Position numbers and translations under genes: made by a program. This document shows positions 14,390 through 54,723 of a stretch of 64,000 nt of DNA, one piece after another. The number at the start of each line of letters is the position of its first letter. Positions within the stretch are counted from its first letter, which is position 1. The notes under the pieces are model-generated. The model made no database searches. It was not told the DNA's origin and worked only from the letters and a program-made list of their open reading frames with translations. Source of the stretch: Halococcus sediminicola (lineage in GTDB: Archaea; Halobacteriota; Halobacteria; Halobacteriales; Halococcaceae); contig NZ_BBMP01000021.1 in NCBI RefSeq assembly GCF_000755245.1, positions 1 through 64,000 on the forward strand, read 5' to 3'.

Positions 14390-15036
14390 TTCCGCTGCTG
14401 CACGACTTCGGCGGGTCGACAGTGGTGGTGTTCGGTGGCGGGCCGGTGGGCGCGCGCAAGGCCCGCCGATTCGCGCGCGAGGCACGAGTCGTGGTGGTGA
14501 GTCCGGCGTTCGCCGACGCCGAGTTCGGCGACAGCGAGCGGGTGCGTGTCGCGCCGACGCCCGACGACGTACCCGAGTGGTTCGAGCGGATCGACCCGGC
14601 GCTCGCGGTTGCGGCGACGAGCGACGAGGCGGTGAACGACGCCGTGACACGGGCGGCGCGCGAGCGAGGAACACTCCTGAATCGTGCCGACCGGAGCGGT
14701 GGGGGTGACAAGCACCTCGACGTGACCGTGCCGGCGACGGTGCGCGACGACCCTGTGCTGCTGGCGGTCGCCACTGGGGGGCGGAGTCCGGCGCTCAGTC
14801 GGTATCTGCGCGAGCGTTTCGAGAACGAGTTCGCCGGTGCGGGCGCGATGGCGACGCTCACGGGACGACTGCGCGAGCAGTTGCGCGAGGATACACCGCC
14901 GGAGGCGCGCCGGGCGGCCATCCGGGCGGTGGTGCGCTCCGAGCGGGTTTGGAAGGCTTTAGGTGATGGGACTCCTAATCCAGCCCAAGAGGCCCAATCG
15001 GTGATCAGCGACGTGCTCTCGGAGGAAAAGCGATGA
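14386..15036 (+). CDS. Precorrin-2 dehydrogenase (siroheme synthase N-terminal type)
   Basis: The enzyme oxidises precorrin-2 to sirohydrochlorin with NAD+, between uroporphyrinogen methylation and iron insertion. The 216-residue protein has the Rossmann signature VVFGGGPVGARKARRF at residues 13-28, the VAATSDEAVNDAVTRAAR segment and LAVATGGRSPALSRYLRERF, as in CysG, Met8 and SirC. It could also be a bifunctional ferrochelatase like Met8, but a CbiX-type chelatase is encoded at 46546-47418. It overlaps the genes on both sides by four bases (ATGA at 14386 and 15033), so all three are likely translationally coupled. Confidence 0.92.
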   Translation: MIPLLHDFGGSTVVVFGGGPVGARKARRFAREARVVVVSPAFADAEFGDSERVRVAPTPDDVPEWFERIDPALAVAATSDEAVNDAVTRAARERGTLLNRADRSGGGDKHLDVTVPATVRDDPVLLAVATGGRSPALSRYLRERFENEFAGAGAMATLTGRLREQLREDTPPEARRAAIRAVVRSERVWKALGDGTPNPAQEAQSVISDVLSEEKR

Positions 15037-16367
15037 CTGTCGCCACCGGCATCATCTCCGGTGTGAGCATCGCCCACCAGCACGCGAGCGTCGAGCAGAT
15101 CGAGGCGGCCTGTGCGTGCGACGAGCGCGAGACCGTCGAAGCCCTGTGCGCTCACGAGGGAATTCACGAAGCGTTCGCGCTCCAGACGTGCAATCGTGCA
15201 GAGCTGTACGTCGTCGCCGACGACCCGGAACGCGGCCACGAAACCCTCTCGTCGGTCGTCACCGACAGCCCCGCGGAAGCCGTCCGCGAACTCGGCCACG
15301 AGGAGAGTCTGCGCCACCTCATGCGGGTCGCTTGCGGGCTGGAGTCGCTCGTGCTCGGCGAGGACCAGATCCTCGGCCAGTTGCAGGACGCCTACGCGAG
15401 CGCGCTGGCGGTCGGCGGTATCGGCCCGATGTTCGAGGAGGGCATCCAGAAAGCCATCCACGTCGGTGAGCGCGCGCGCACCGAGACGGCCATCGACGAG
15501 GGCGTGGTTTCACTGGGGAGCGCCGCCGCACGGCTCGCCGACGAGAAGCGACCGCTCGACGGTGCGACGGGGCTCGTCGTCGGTGCGGGTGAGATGGGAA
15601 CGCTCGCCGCCCAGTCGCTCGCTCGCTCGGTCGGGCAGCTGTTCGTGGCGAATCGAACCAAAGAAACGGCCGCGCACGTCGCCGAGCAGGTCGATACCGA
15701 CGGCACGGCGCTCGCTCTGGACGATCTTCCCGAGGCGCTCTCGCTCGCCGACGTCGTCGTCTCGGCGACGAGCAGTCCCGTCCCCGTGCTCGACCGCGCG
15801 GCGCTCGAATCGGCCAGCGAAATCCTGCTCATCGACATCGCCCAGCCGCGCGACGCCCCACAGGCCGCCGCCGATCTCCCGAACGTCACCCACTACGACC
15901 TCGACGCGCTCGAATCCGTCACCGAGGAGACACGCGAGCAGCGACGAGAAGCCGCCGAGCGCGTCGAGGCGATGATCGACCGCGAGTTCGACAACCTGCT
16001 CGCCCGCTACAAGCGCCAACGCGCCGACGCGGTCATCGCCGCGATGTACGAGAACGCAGAGCGGATGAAAGAGCGTGAACTCTCGCGTGCGCTCTCGAAG
16101 CTCGACACTGATGGACTGACTGACGACCAGCACGCGGTCGTCGAGTCACTCGCCGACACGCTCGTGAGCCAACTGCTCGCCGCCCCTACCAAGAGCCTGC
16201 GCGACGCCGCCGAGGCCGACGACTGGACGACGATCAACAGCGCGCTCCGGCTGTTCGACCCCACCTTCGACTCCGGCGACGCACCCCCGGCCGCCGACCC
16301 GAGCGACGTTCCACCCGAAACCCAGCACGCGCTCGCCTCGGCCGTCCGCGAACACCTCGACGACTAA
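15033..16367 (+). CDS. hemA: Glutamyl-tRNA reductase
   Basis: It reduces glutamyl-tRNA(Glu) to glutamate-1-semialdehyde with NADPH, the committed step of tetrapyrrole synthesis. The 444-residue protein has the catalytic Cys53 in ALQTCNRAELYV, the tRNA and active-site region around GLESLVLGEDQILGQL, the NADPH-binding GLVVGAGEMGTLAAQSLA near residues 182-199, and a C-terminal dimerisation helix rich in Arg and Glu. Length matches the family. It is the last gene of the ahbAB operon; the poly-T run just after the stop (16374-16380) may end the transcript before repeat B1. Confidence 0.95.
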   Translation: MTVATGIISGVSIAHQHASVEQIEAACACDERETVEALCAHEGIHEAFALQTCNRAELYVVADDPERGHETLSSVVTDSPAEAVRELGHEESLRHLMRVACGLESLVLGEDQILGQLQDAYASALAVGGIGPMFEEGIQKAIHVGERARTETAIDEGVVSLGSAAARLADEKRPLDGATGLVVGAGEMGTLAAQSLARSVGQLFVANRTKETAAHVAEQVDTDGTALALDDLPEALSLADVVVSATSSPVPVLDRAALESASEILLIDIAQPRDAPQAAADLPNVTHYDLDALESVTEETREQRREAAERVEAMIDREFDNLLARYKRQRADAVIAAMYENAERMKERELSRALSKLDTDGLTDDQHAVVESLADTLVSQLLAAPTKSLRDAAEADDWTTINSALRLFDPTFDSGDAPPAADPSDVPPETQHALASAVREHLDD

Positions 16368-16372
16368 ACACC

Positions 16373-16620
16373 CACTTTTTTACTCGTCGGGTGCGCTTCG
16401 CGCACCGCTCCTCGCAAAAACCTGGACTAAAAATTCCCGTTCACTCGGCCTTCGGCCTCGTTCACGGAGAACTGCGCTCACATCGTTCGCGCGGACACCA
16501 TACCACAACCGCTGCCCGTACAGCACCGCAGAAGCCCTCATTCACTTCGTTCGCTCGCCCTTCATCCACCAGGAACCGCCACCGTACCGCGGCCGCCTGC
16601 CACGCAGCGGTTTCGCTGGA
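16373..16620 (+). repeat. Dispersed structured repeat, family B, copy 1
   Basis: The element follows hemA on the same strand. In order it holds a T-tract, a hairpin (ggtgcgc 16390-16396 with gcgcacc 16400-16406), a conserved A-rich block (16411-16438), a second hairpin region (ggcc repeats), a block around 16490-16520, the conserved core cagcaccgc.gaagccctc (16521-16539), a variable segment, a second core tcgcccttcatcc.ccagga (16555-16574), and a terminal hairpin (cagcg/cgctg near 16605-16618). Copy 2 at 40825-41150 has the same order. No ORF is conserved between copies. Confidence 0.75.
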
Positions 16621-39098: not shown

Positions 39099-40003
39099 CC
39101 GCCGACCTCCACCTTCGCACAGAAGAAGCCACCCGTGTCGTTCAGATGGGGATAGATGCGTTTTGCCTTCCGCACGCTCTCGTCGAATTTCTTGCCCTGC
39201 CATTCGGTGATTCCGGGCCGAGTTTCGAGATCACAGGAAAAATCGACGAGTCGGCAGTCTTCGGCCGAAAGAACGCTGTCGAGGACGGCCTCGTTCTCCT
39301 CCGGTGCGAACGTGCAGGTCGAGTACACCACGACACCACCCCGACGGGTCGCCTGTACCGCCCGCCGGAGGATGGATTCTTGGATCGCGGCGACCGATTC
39401 GACGTAGGAGAGCGACCACTCGGCGAGCGCGTCCGGGTTCTTCCGGATCGTGCCCTCGCACGAACACGGCGCGTCGACGAGCGCGCGATCGAACGCGTCG
39501 AACGCGAACGGCTTGAGCGAGTAGTTCCGCCCGTCGCGGTTCGTCACCGCCATCGAGGTGACGCCGAGGCGCTCGGCGTTGAATCTGAGGGCAGAAAGCC
39601 GACCCAGGTTCCGGTCGTTCGCCACGACGAATGCCTTCTCGTCGGCGAGGGCAGCGAGTTGGGTCGCCTTCCCGCCGGGGGCGGCACAGGCCGCCCAGAC
39701 GCGATCGCCGGGTTGGGGATCACAGACGAGCGCCGGCAGCGCCGAGACTTCCTCCTGGCCGTGGAGCCAGCCGTGATAGGCCCCCCACGTCCGGCCCGGA
39801 CTGGCCGAATCGAGCCGGAGAAGGCTGGGATGCCACTCCGTGGGTTCGTAGCCCACGCCCTCCGCGTCGAGTGCGGCCATCGCCCGCTTGGGCGTCGCCT
39901 TGATCTCGTTCACCCGGACGACGGAGGGCAGCGGGCGCTCACAGGCCGCACGGAACGCCGCGAAATCGTCGACGAGCGGTTCGTATCGTTCGAGAACGTC
40001 CAT
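39095..40003 (-). CDS. RNA (cytosine-5-)-methyltransferase, NOL1/NOP2/Sun family
   Basis: The enzyme methylates cytosine C5 in rRNA or tRNA using S-adenosylmethionine. The 302-residue protein has the SAM-binding motif WAACAAPGGKATQLAAL (103-119), the DAPCSCEG motif with Cys180, and the STCTF motif with the catalytic Cys230, which attacks the cytosine. Its target RNA cannot be told from sequence. The overlapping downstream gene is a split-off RNA-binding domain, making a two-subunit version of the bacterial RsmF layout. Start at the ATG at 40003. Confidence 0.93.
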   Translation of the reverse strand: MDVLERYEPLVDDFAAFRAACERPLPSVVRVNEIKATPKRAMAALDAEGVGYEPTEWHPSLLRLDSASPGRTWGAYHGWLHGQEEVSALPALVCDPQPGDRVWAACAAPGGKATQLAALADEKAFVVANDRNLGRLSALRFNAERLGVTSMAVTNRDGRNYSLKPFAFDAFDRALVDAPCSCEGTIRKNPDALAEWSLSYVESVAAIQESILRRAVQATRRGGVVVYSTCTFAPEENEAVLDSVLSAEDCRLVDFSCDLETRPGITEWQGKKFDESVRKAKRIYPHLNDTGGFFCAKVEVGG

Positions 40004-40083
40004 TGGGAACCCATCCGTCCGGGGTCGCTTGTCGATTTCGGAGTTGGGAGGGTATTAAGTCGCTTCGGCGAGAATGCCACCAC

Positions 40084-40821
40084 ATGGCACACATCGACGT
40101 CGTGGCCGAGGACATCGCACTCGACGAACCGACGCTCGTCGAGGGGCTGCCGGGCGTCGGACTGGTGGGCAAGATCGTCGCCGACCACCTCGTCGATGCC
40201 TTCGACATGGATTACTACGCCGGCGTCCACTGCGATGGCGTCCCGGAAGTCGGCGTCTATCGCGGCGAACGCTCCGCCCTCAGACCGCCCGTCCGCCTCC
40301 ACGCCGACGCCGAGCGCGATCTCCTCGTGCTCCAGAGCGACGTCCCGGTCTCACCGAACGAGGCGACCGGGTTCGCCGACTGCATCACCGGCTGGCTCGC
40401 CGACAACAACGTCACGCCGCTCTATCTCAGCGGCCTGCCCGACCAGTCCGACGAGGTGCCCGAAGTGTATGGCGTGTCGACCGGTGCTGGCAACGATCTC
40501 CTCGACGAGGCCGGCATCGTCCCACCCGCTGAGGGCGGTCTCGTGAGCGGCCCGACCGGCGCACTACTCTATCACGCCGAGCGAACGAACCTCACGAGCG
40601 TCGGTCTCATCGCCGAGACCAACCCACAGTTCCCCGACCCCGAGGCCGCCCGTGCGGTCCTCGAACACGGCATCGAACCGCTCACCGGCATCGGCATCGA
40701 CACCTCCGATCTCGTCGAACAGGCCGAAGAGATCCAGGAGGCCCGCGAGCGCCTCGCCGAACGGATGCACCAGGCCGAAGACGAGAGTTCGCAGGCCGAA
40801 CCGATGCGGATGTTCCAATAG
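40084..40821 (+). CDS. PAC2-family protein (proteasome-assembly chaperone-like)
   Basis: The 245-residue protein is an archaeal PAC2-family member, homologous to the eukaryotic proteasome assembly chaperone PAC2; archaeal members are thought to have related roles. Recognisable are TLVEGLPGVGLVGKIVADHL near residue 17, LLVLQSDVPVSPNEATGFAD, LYLSGLPDQSDEVPEVYGVS, and LVSGPTGALLYHAERTNLTS. The last 35 residues form a coiled coil (VEQAEEIQEARERLAERMH). A TATA-like ggtattaag centred near 40056 predicts a leaderless transcript from the ATG at 40084. Repeat B2 begins directly after the stop. Confidence 0.9.
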   Translation: MAHIDVVAEDIALDEPTLVEGLPGVGLVGKIVADHLVDAFDMDYYAGVHCDGVPEVGVYRGERSALRPPVRLHADAERDLLVLQSDVPVSPNEATGFADCITGWLADNNVTPLYLSGLPDQSDEVPEVYGVSTGAGNDLLDEAGIVPPAEGGLVSGPTGALLYHAERTNLTSVGLIAETNPQFPDPEAARAVLEHGIEPLTGIGIDTSDLVEQAEEIQEARERLAERMHQAEDESSQAEPMRMFQ

Positions 40822-40824
40822 TGC

Positions 40825-41150
40825 CTTTTTACTTCGTCGGGTGGCCTCCCTGTGGTCGGCCACCACTCTCTGCTCGCGGGCCGAAGGCCCGCTCGCACGG
40901 TACGAGGGACCGAAGATCCCTCGCTACTCGCAAAAAGCTACGCTAAAAACTCCCGCTCGCGCCTGCGGCGCTCGCGGTGAACCTCACTCACTCCGTTCGC
41001 GTGGACGCCTTCCGCAACCGCACAGTCCCACCTCAGCACCGCCGAAGCCCTCACTCGCTCACCCCGTTCGCTCGTTCGCCCTTCATCCACCAGGAACAGC
41101 CCCGCTACCGCACCGCAATCGCCGCCGGTCGGCGGCGTTTTCACGCCACA
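40825..41150 (+). repeat. Dispersed structured repeat, family B, copy 2 (longest copy)
   Basis: The element follows the PAC2 gene on the same strand. It has a T-tract, a hairpin (ggtggcc 40840-40846 with ggccacc 40858-40864), further hairpins (gcgggcc with ggcccgc near 40877-40893, and cgaggga with tccctcg near 40903-40923), the A-rich block near 40926-40953, and a GC hairpin (gcgcc/ggcgc near 40960-40972). The two conserved cores follow, at 41034-41052 and 41076-41095, then a terminal hairpin (gccgcc/ggcggc near 41121-41136). Its first hairpin differs from that of copy 1 at positions that still pair. There is no ORF of interest. Confidence 0.75.
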
Positions 41151-42805: not shown

Positions 42806-43076
42806 GGCATTTGTTAACTCGTGGGTGCGGGGTTTAAACGTTACTGCTCCGAGATAGCGGCCGCGCCTGCCGGTAGATCGAGTCCGACCGCTGTCGTGGT
42901 CGCAGCAGCACCGTTCGACTCCCGCTCCGCTCGGTTCGATGTGGGTGTGCGTGTCACATATACTTTCTGGCCTCGGGCGTCAGACGACAGAGAATACCAA
43001 TTGATGGTGATAGATGTCGTTAGCGTGGGGCTGGCACATCGAAATCGGTTTACCCGGAAGGTCGGAAGCCCAGTAT
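42806..43076. other. 271-base divergent gap upstream of purA
   Basis: The gap holds the TATA box of the HTH gene (near 42828-42836, minus strand) and a plus-strand TATA-like cacatatact at 42956-42964. The latter would start a transcript near 42987, about 90 bases before the purA ATG, or 27 before an in-frame ATG at 43014. A weaker ggtttaccc near 43047-43055 would give leaderless purA. I see no other gene here. Confidence 0.5.
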
Positions 43077-44441
43077 ATGACTGTCACCATCGTCGGCGCA
43101 CAGCTCGGCGACGAGGGCAAGGGCGGGATGGCCGACCGCTGGAGCGAATCAGCTGAGGTCGTCTGTCGGTACCAGGGCGGCGACAACGCCGGCCACACCG
43201 TCGTCCACGGCGGCGAGGAGTACAAACTCTCGCTGGTGCCGAGCGGGGCCATCCGCGGGAAAGTCAACGTACTGGGCAACGGCTGCGTCGTCAACCCGAA
43301 AACCCTTTTCGAGGAACTCGACGCGCTCGCCGACCGTGGCATCGATCCCGACGTCAGAGTCGCCCGCCGCGCGCACGTCATCTTTCCCTATCATCGCGTG
43401 CTCGACGGCATCGAGGAAGAGGTGAAGAGCGAGAGCGACTTCGACGTCGCCACCACCGGCCGCGGCATCGGCCCGACCTACGAGGACAAGGCCGGCCGGC
43501 GCGGCATCCGTATCGGCGACCTCCTGAACGAAGACGTGCTCCGCGAACGGCTCGAATACGTCGTCCCACAGAAACGCGCGCTCGCCGAGGAGGTCTTCGG
43601 CGTCGAAACGGGCGAGGCGTTCGACGTGGACGCGCTCTACGAGCAGTACTCGAAGTTCGGCGAGCGACTCGCGGCGGAGGACATGACCGTCGACGCCGGA
43701 ACCTTCCTCGCCGATCGCATCGACGACGGCGAGGAGGTGCTCTTCGAGGGCGCACAGGGCACGATTTTGGACATCGACCACGGCAACTACCCCTACGTCA
43801 CCTCCTCGAACCCCACCGCGAGCGGGGCGGCCGTCGGCACGGGACTCGGACCGGGAATCGTCGGCGACGGCGAGATCGTCGGCATCGCCAAGGCCTACCT
43901 CTCGCGGGTCGGTACGGGTCCCCTCCCCACCGAACTCGGTGGCGTGGTCGGCCAGACACCCGACTACGACGAGGACACCGAACGTGGCGACGAGGCGCTC
44001 GCCACGGAGCTCCGCGAGGCCGGCGGTGAATATGGAACTGTCACGGGCCGACCGCGACGCATCGGCTGGCTCGACCTGCCGATGCTCCGCCACGCGACGC
44101 GCGCAAACGGATTCACGGGACTCGTCGTCAATCACATCGACACGCTCGCTGGTCTCGACGAGGTTCGAGTGGGCCACTCCTACACGCTCGATGGCGAGGA
44201 ACGATTCACTTTGCCGGCGACGACCGAGCGCTGGGCCGACTGCGAGGCGAACCTCGAACGGTTCGACGGCTGGGCCGACGCCGACTGGGACGCGATCGCC
44301 GACGAGGGCTACGACGCGCTTCCGGAGAACGCACGCACCTATCTGGATTACATCAGCGAGGAACTCGACGTCCCGATCTACGCCGTCGGCGTCGGACCGG
44401 GCCGTGAGCAGACGGTGGTGTGTGAGGACCCGTTCGCGTAG
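43077..44441 (+). CDS. purA: Adenylosuccinate synthetase
   Basis: The enzyme joins IMP and aspartate with GTP, the first committed step to AMP. The 454-residue protein has the P-loop-like signature VGAQLGDEGKGGMADRW, the GDNAGHTV loop, TGRGIGPTYEDKAGRRGIR, the FEGAQGTILDIDHGNYPYVT segment and the GTP-binding VNHIDTLAG region. I use the ATG at 43077 (MTVTIVGAQLGDEG) because homologues start there; an in-frame ATG at 43014 would add 21 residues. The gene is immediately followed by repeat B3. Confidence 0.96.
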   Translation: MTVTIVGAQLGDEGKGGMADRWSESAEVVCRYQGGDNAGHTVVHGGEEYKLSLVPSGAIRGKVNVLGNGCVVNPKTLFEELDALADRGIDPDVRVARRAHVIFPYHRVLDGIEEEVKSESDFDVATTGRGIGPTYEDKAGRRGIRIGDLLNEDVLRERLEYVVPQKRALAEEVFGVETGEAFDVDALYEQYSKFGERLAAEDMTVDAGTFLADRIDDGEEVLFEGAQGTILDIDHGNYPYVTSSNPTASGAAVGTGLGPGIVGDGEIVGIAKAYLSRVGTGPLPTELGGVVGQTPDYDEDTERGDEALATELREAGGEYGTVTGRPRRIGWLDLPMLRHATRANGFTGLVVNHIDTLAGLDEVRVGHSYTLDGEERFTLPATTERWADCEANLERFDGWADADWDAIADEGYDALPENARTYLDYISEELDVPIYAVGVGPGREQTVVCEDPFA

Positions 44442-44452
44442 TCGACACCGCA

Positions 44453-44640
44453 CAGCACCGCCGAAGCCCTCGGCCGTGGTTCGAGAGAGCTTCGCTCTCT
44501 CGTCATCACGAAAGGCGCGAAGCGCCTTTCGAATGACTTCACGGCCTCGCCCTTCATCCGCCAGGACCGCACAGTTCAGCAACCACACAACACCGCAGCC
44601 GCGGCCGCGCTGCGGCCGCTCCACACCGCCCGCGACCGCC
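44453..44640 (+). repeat. Dispersed structured repeat, family B, copy 3
   Basis: This copy starts 12 bases after the purA stop, on the same strand, and lacks the left part. It has the first core (44453-44471). A strikingly perfect branched structure follows: outer stem ggccgtg 44472-44478 with cacggcc 44540-44546, a 9-bp inner hairpin (44482-44490 with 44494-44502), and a second arm closed by gtcat/atgac (44502-44506 with 44533-44537) around a 10-bp hairpin (44509-44518 with 44522-44531). The second core (44547-44566) and a gcggccgc/gcggccgc terminal hairpin near 44599-44618 complete it. Confidence 0.8.

Positions 44641-52603: not shown

Positions 52604-54723
<2,120 letters not shown>

Follow-up and report, generated by a model that had tools for sequence, protein, structure and literature searches.

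Copies of the repeat and their parts

The window, by which we mean the whole 64-kb stretch of DNA analysed here, is part of a 3.76-Mb Halococcus draft genome (contig C21 in the genome set) and contains four copies of an intergenic repeat. Each copy lies directly after a gene on the same strand, as had been noted in a preliminary description of the sequence, and these genes are hemA, a PAC2 protein gene, an adenylosuccinate synthetase-family gene and the gene for GyrB. The common order of parts that had been reported for copies 1 and 2 was likewise found where it had been placed. The genes and the parts of the four copies are as follows.

15033-16367, same strand as copy 1: GluTR gene (hemA)
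16372..16433, plus strand: copy 1 left module, CCAC-T6, hairpin 1, A5, CCTGG, A5, beginning 5 nt past the hemA stop codon (16365-16367)
16376-16381, plus strand: copy 1 T6 tract
Within the copy 1 left module, plus strand: hairpin 1, arms GGGTGCGC-TTC-GCGCACC
16416-16420 and 16429-16433, plus strand: copy 1 A5 blocks
16437..16467, plus strand: copy 1 hairpin 2, CCGTTCACTCGG-CCTTCGG-CCTCGTTCACGG
16472..16494, plus strand: copy 1 hairpin 3, CTGCGCTC-ACATCGT-TCGCGCGG
16522..16574, plus strand: copy 1 core module, box AGCACCGCAGAAGCCCTC (16522-16539), hairpin 4, box TCGCCCTTCATCCACCAGGA (16555-16574)
16529-16573, minus strand: covariance model match to the copy 1 core, E 1.1e-15
40003-40821, same strand as copy 2: PAC2 protein gene
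40822..40949, plus strand: copy 2 left module, in which hairpin 1 encloses an additional hairpin pair (about 40867-40920)
40826-40830, plus strand: copy 2 T5 tract, 5 nt past the PAC2 gene stop codon (40819-40821)
Within the copy 2 left module, plus strand: hairpin 1, GGTGGCC...GGCCACC
40932-40936 and 40945-40949, plus strand: copy 2 A5 blocks
41035..41095, plus strand: copy 2 core module (covariance model match 41042-41094, minus strand, E 1.7e-14)
43014-44441, same strand as copy 3: adenylosuccinate synthetase-family protein gene
44454..44566, plus strand: copy 3, a core without other modules, containing a long nested hairpin unit and lying 12 nt past the adenylosuccinate synthetase-family stop codon
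52661..52786, minus strand: copy 4, two tandem cores in the gyrB-gyrA gap (52738-52786 and 52661-52720), the first a variant AAAGCCCTC-hairpin-TCGCCCTTTTCATGTCCACCAGG
52786-54714, minus strand, same strand as copy 4: GyrB gene

The T-tract/A-block part is absent from copies 3 and 4, and the repeat is therefore modular. Four occurrences of the core box TCGCCCTTCATCCrCCAGG(A/G) were counted in the window, where shuffles predict none. The tandem cores of copy 4, which have no T tract, occupy a short gap between gyrB and gyrA in which a full terminator would be unexpected.

The element is ~250 bp long and consists of a gene end, a T tract, hairpin 1, two A blocks, hairpins 2 and 3 and the core. 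Along the host gene, a stop codon or tRNA 3' end is followed after a few nucleotides by xyAC[n]T4-6, hairpin 1, A4-6 and [n]CTy'x', and after a few more by A4-6, hairpin 2, GTGAACC, hairpin 3, GCGCGGAY and a copy-specific spacer. The 3' part consists of ACAGCACCGCnGAAGCCCTC, hairpin 4, TCGCCCTTCATCCrCCAGGA and a (CCGCAn)n-like tail, the core being GAAGCCCTC-hairpin-TCGCCCTTCATCCrCCAGGA. A terminal hairpin had been described as common to copies 1 and 2; it is not conserved between copies, and the tail is what follows the core. The T tract is T5-6 in most copies and T4 in a minority of 10 or so, and the bases preceding hairpin 1 are variable (CTCG, CTCC, TGCG, ACAC and others). A T run lies ahead of hairpin 1 on either strand (order T-stem-A), and the complements of the two A4-6 blocks form two T tracts on the opposite strand. 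Single modules can be absent from copies, and complete further hairpins can sit inside hairpin loops. Recurrent nested hairpin units were observed at the same insertion points of different copies (L004, L026, L029, L034, L037, L043 and L139), examples being GGTTCGAGAGAGC...GTCATCACGAAA...TTTCGAACGAC and GGAGAGC...GCTCTCCTGAGCCT.

Distribution and persistence at gene ends

BLAST with copy 1 as the query returned dozens of relatives with identities of about 70-90%. With a covariance model built on the 3' core, 51 copies were found in this genome (E < 1e-5), and the core box was present 39 times with <=3 mismatches, compared to 0 for a reversed control. The strict pattern GAAGCCCTC-N10-40-CGCCCTTCATCC occurred 21-47 times per genome in all 10 of 10 Halococcus species, again with 0 in the reversed control. 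The left module, searched as CTTTTT-N25-55-GCAAAAA-N8-AAAAA, was present in 192 of 292 Halobacteria genomes, covering 60 of 77 genera, and the reversed control was almost empty; its matches beyond Halobacteria were at about control level and resemble AT-rich chance. Two Natrialbaceae plasmids carry the left module, hairpin 2, a GTGAACC-like box and hairpin 3 without the Halococcus core. Halococcus has an amplified set of cores, Haladaptatus, Halorussus and several Halobacteriales MAGs contain fewer copies, and in other families the core takes more distant forms. Weak model matches near E = 0.001-0.01 are not to be counted as homologues. One core match in viral contigs, and core-pattern matches in bacterial genome contigs, were without the surrounding boxes and were dismissed as chance.

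Outside Halococcus, a conserved box AGCTAGCTACTCCCG often lies ~25 nt upstream of the core and CCTCCCCGC-type boxes come after it. This composite is a different arrangement around the same core and was seen in L143, L158, L172, L184, L258, L261, L269 and others (Halorussus, MAG SW_6_65_15). A second haloarchaeal hairpin family, GGGATGAGCGA-hairpin-GCGAATCGGTTGGGGAGG, was represented by L279, L282 and also L149 and gave a weak core-model match. At three further non-Halococcus loci, L270 (G196:C19:19974-20022), L272 (G027:C2:1904359-1904407) and L298 (G027:C2:1951247-1951296), a core variant is bordered by a direct duplication of about 50-70 bp of the adjoining gene's 3' end; L270 and L272 both lie at the end of an apparent acyl-CoA dehydrogenase gene, in genomes of different families.

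Among copies with the T-hairpin-A-A module, the T tract begins 3-12 nt past the stop codon of an open frame that lies on the same strand and is at least 100 codons long in 70 of 110, compared to 3.1% of random positions in the same loci, and several copies adjoin the 3' ends of tRNA genes rather than stop codons. The boxes hold a fixed orientation relative to the host gene. The downstream gene was convergent for 59 scorable copies and co-directional for 44 by a heuristic codon-position G+C call, which is imperfect and assigned 28 upstream genes to the wrong strand. The preliminary description had made its case depend on covariation, strand placement and occurrence beyond a single genome. As far as tested, the covariation holds (see below), strand placement is non-random, and copies are found in all 10 Halococcus genomes and in further Halobacteria.

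Orthologous gene ends were compared for 18 H. morrhuae copies and two relatives, in a sample of the 30 best-matching loci (18 sites, three species) with upstream coding sequence 94-99% identical. The core was held at 29 of the 30 ends, and no empty site was seen among these places. In the alignments of orthologues, boxes are conserved, spacers are often recognisable, and entire hairpins have been replaced, in some cases with the sub-type changing (as also in L016 versus L241). Mean hairpin identity, compared for the 28 of 48 elements that could be parsed, was 0.64-0.74 between orthologues versus 0.55-0.63 between non-orthologous copies, and spacer identity was 0.79 versus 0.65. The simplest reading of these results is long residence at fixed gene ends, with hairpin cassettes exchanged between copies that share the short boxes.

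This persistence bears on the suggestion, raised in the preliminary description, of a mobile MITE-like unit, which in its fullest form is a non-autonomous element of MITE, PATE or REPIN type, targeted to gene ends and dependent for its movement on a transposase in trans. The family is dispersed and multi-copy, with modular and nested insertions, as such an element would be; outward-facing inverted core pairs, 60-100 bp apart, occur in Haladaptatus and in G075/G128 (L192 of Haladaptatus halobius, L273, L274, L300), and in L270, L272 and L298 the duplicated 3' end of a gene flanks the core variant. Retention of the core at 29 of 30 orthologous ends despite wholesale hairpin replacement argues against a currently mobile MITE, as does the divergence of copies within one genome, which gives no sign of a recent burst. 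The 51 copies in this genome are moreover restricted to eight contigs (C2, C6, C7, C10, C11, C21, C22 and C26) that make up 2.44 of its 3.76 Mb. The remaining 1.32 Mb holds 0 copies versus about 18 expected, and includes contigs C23 and C3, which carry all four Y1 (IS200-type) transposase genes. Present mobility was therefore set aside, and we consider a mobile element unlikely as an explanation of the family. An IS200-type transposase gene upstream of the H. morrhuae copy L185 is separated from it by N-joins, and linkage cannot be claimed.

The copy-free portion of about 1.3 Mb also means that the repeat family may serve as a marker of the main chromosome. A chromosome-like distribution, palindromes of variable sequence and a copy between gyrB and gyrA would be consistent with a DNA-structure or nucleoid site of the sort proposed for BIMEs (for gyrase or a chromatin protein, for instance), located at gene ends because positive supercoils accumulate there. 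A site of this kind would have no need for T and A tracts ordered along the gene or for a fixed box orientation, and we regard this explanation as improbable.

Pairing and the strand of the core fold

The compensatory change first noticed in the hairpins of copies 1 and 2 held in far larger sets. In 118 distinct left modules, the pairs flanking hairpin 1 were Watson-Crick in 98% (x-x') and 96% (y-y') of cases versus 52% and 42% for shuffled partners, although these and the pairing figures below are not counts of independent events, since shuffles leave relatedness in and hairpins move as units. The main xy/y'x' combinations were CC/GG, GT/AC, GA/TC, CG/CG, GC/GC and GG/CC, and the xy pair covaries across genera over 40-130 nt. 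The three pairs inside T5/A5 were 85-89% Watson-Crick versus 37-47% shuffled in 53 class-wide sequences, which had been chosen by flanking TCGG and CTC and not by pairing; in Halococcus, the outer two of the three are often T.C and C.T.

The core gave the same result. In a gap-free alignment of 30 cores, nine pairs had 98.9% standard cells versus 87.0% shuffled, 33 cells were changed on both sides versus 10.8 shuffled, and pairing fell to 28-48% when the partners were slid. Variable interior positions of hairpin 4 were 73% Watson-Crick versus 48% shuffled in 117 distinct modules, the remainder being mostly T.C/C.T. The element is structured and its pairing is strongly compensatory. A U.A-U triple helix, suggested by correlated lengths of the T, A and A tracts, was rejected; the correlation is partly sub-type inheritance, and the triple helix had no other support.

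The irregular positions of the hairpins differ between the strands. Non-Watson-Crick positions of hairpins 2-4 are pyrimidine-pyrimidine on the host-gene strand and G.A on the strand opposite the host gene (286 versus 6). In the core they are usually tandem and C-G flanked, and most core loops are TNC on the top strand, which is GNA on the opposite strand. Established nucleic-acid chemistry attributes unusual stability to tandem sheared G.A pairs and to GNA loops. In RNAfold the opposite strand was more stable in 130 of 132 core modules with RNA parameters, a comparison in which composition alone partly favours the purine-rich strand, and DNA energy parameters gave the same preference more weakly (122 versus 7 modules). 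The opposite-strand core is drawn by RNAfold as a ladder of alternating pairs and G.A steps. These results suggest that it is the opposite strand on which the core folds. A wobble excess on the opposite strand, which would favour a folded single strand, was suggestive in 117 cores and non-significant in a larger set; wobble asymmetry was therefore dropped as an indicator of the transcribed strand.

Both the G.A bias and the better opposite-strand fold would be expected of a small antisense RNA gene, the RNA being the strand opposite the host gene. Against this, the right flank is GC-rich (CCGCAn)n in which no TATA-like promoter was found by inspection, and the wobble excess lost its significance as described above; we give a dedicated antisense gene little credence. 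It is very improbable that the compensatory changes are mutational rather than selected, with template switching perfecting palindromes and the repeat a by-product at terminators, because the stop-adjacent xy pair covaries between genera across 40-130 nt and boxes, spacing and gene-end positions are conserved, even though whole hairpins are swapped at once between close species, so that their arms are not independent, and the shuffle controls retain relatedness.

Proposed function and relation to known systems

On balance, we lean towards interpreting the repeat as a modular element of gene ends that is inherited vertically and would act as a bidirectional, T-tract-first transcription terminator with exchangeable hairpin cassettes. 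In Haloferax volcanii, T5C is the main intergenic terminator and gave 95% termination in a reporter (PMC7237163). With a T tract after the stop codon and two opposed T tracts behind the palindrome, a polymerase arriving from either side would reach T tracts before the hairpin. This layout, together with the T5C precedent, is why the left module is taken as a two-way terminator and insulator of gene ends; its position, polarity and helices are shown by the sequences, and its terminating activity and the role of its helices are predicted from them. The T tract would stop host-gene transcription, and the opposed T tracts would do the same for transcription that is convergent or antisense, with the helices serving as a back-up barrier or as a 3'-end cap in read-through and antisense RNA. 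Cassettes would be exchanged by recombination or template switching between copies with common boxes. Of the options in the preliminary description, a 3'-end RNA element is thus the best fitting, in the modified form of a putative bidirectional terminator.

The terminator explanation is weakest on what the core does. Because it folds better opposite the host gene, the core probably has its role in transcripts that are antisense or convergent, or else in the form of single-stranded DNA, and since copies 3 and 4 are core-only and lack a T tract, it must serve some other purpose. Other observations also stand against a terminator. Termination would be weaker at the 10 or so copies with T4, the long palindromes are unaccounted for given that Haloferax needs no more than a T tract, and full termination would be odd for copy 4 between gyrB and gyrA. 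A more elaborate version, in which a class-wide T-first bidirectional terminator is coupled to an opposite-strand core whose fold alternates between Watson-Crick and tandem sheared G.A steps, this fold is recognised in antisense RNA or single-stranded DNA by a dedicated factor, and cassette exchange is guided by structure, seems to us rather unlikely. If true, this arrangement would constitute 3'-end machinery not previously described.

The repeat is a genuine and widely distributed structured element of gene ends that is apparently undescribed. A scan against Rfam gave no gathering-score match in the window, the best match to copy 1 being far below gathering (E 2.5), and no description of the repeat was found in open-licence papers, in agreement with the earlier statement that no named element with this layout was known. 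If the terminator interpretation is right, haloarchaea, for which the described terminator is a T tract only, own a recognisable genome-wide 3'-end signal, and operon ends could be annotated across the class. The cassettes provide a natural experiment in which structure is kept and sequence swapped within one genus, and Haloferax would allow direct tests both of what archaeal 3' structures do and of how cassettes are exchanged.

A close precedent is the Haloferax T5C terminator (PMC7237163), with which the repeat shares a T5-6 tract directly past the stop codon (T4 in the minority). Unlike T5C, the tract is built into a palindrome that covaries and whose complementary strand carries opposed T tracts; in Halococcus, further modules are attached to it. 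Bacterial bidirectional intrinsic terminators similarly serve both strands through a palindrome that lies between an A run and a T run, but the polarity here is the reverse (T run-stem-A run), and no GC-rich hairpin lies directly 5' of a U run around hairpin 1.

The PATEs and SMRs of Haloquadratum are also haloarchaeal, short and non-coding, with palindromes nested in palindromes, but they are strain-specific insertions related to IS605-type ends (PMC3119063), whereas the places of the Halococcus element are common to several species (29 of 30 occupied; 18 sites, three species). By inspection, no terminal inverted repeats or IS605-like subterminal palindromes were seen in Halococcus, and inverted core pairs occur in other genera. 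Integron attC sites resemble the repeat in conserving structure over sequence and in their variable loop, opposite-strand fold and position after a stop codon. Unlike attC, the conserved arms GAAGCCCTC and GCCCTTCATCC contain no RYYYAAC/GTTRRRY by inspection, and positions are stable.

A further comparison is with REP/BIME elements, including the GTAG- and CGTC-tagged REPs, which are likewise dispersed intergenic palindromes of mosaic build and which in bacteria cluster close to the upstream gene's 3' end or in the gap between two convergent genes (PMC3733652). The Halococcus element similarly has many dispersed intergenic palindromic copies near gene 3' ends. In contrast to the 20-40 bp palindromic unit of REPs with its GTAG or CGTC tag, the element is ~250 bp long and has no conserved tag; it has a fixed order of boxes that includes T and A tracts, and the sequence of its hairpins is not conserved. 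It is also archaeal, with a class-wide left module and stable positions, and in this genome no transposase lies beside it; REPs are associated with a RAYT (Y1) transposase, and the four Y1_Tnp genes here are on copy-free contigs. The element is therefore an archaeal counterpart of the REP/BIME elements rather than a member of them.
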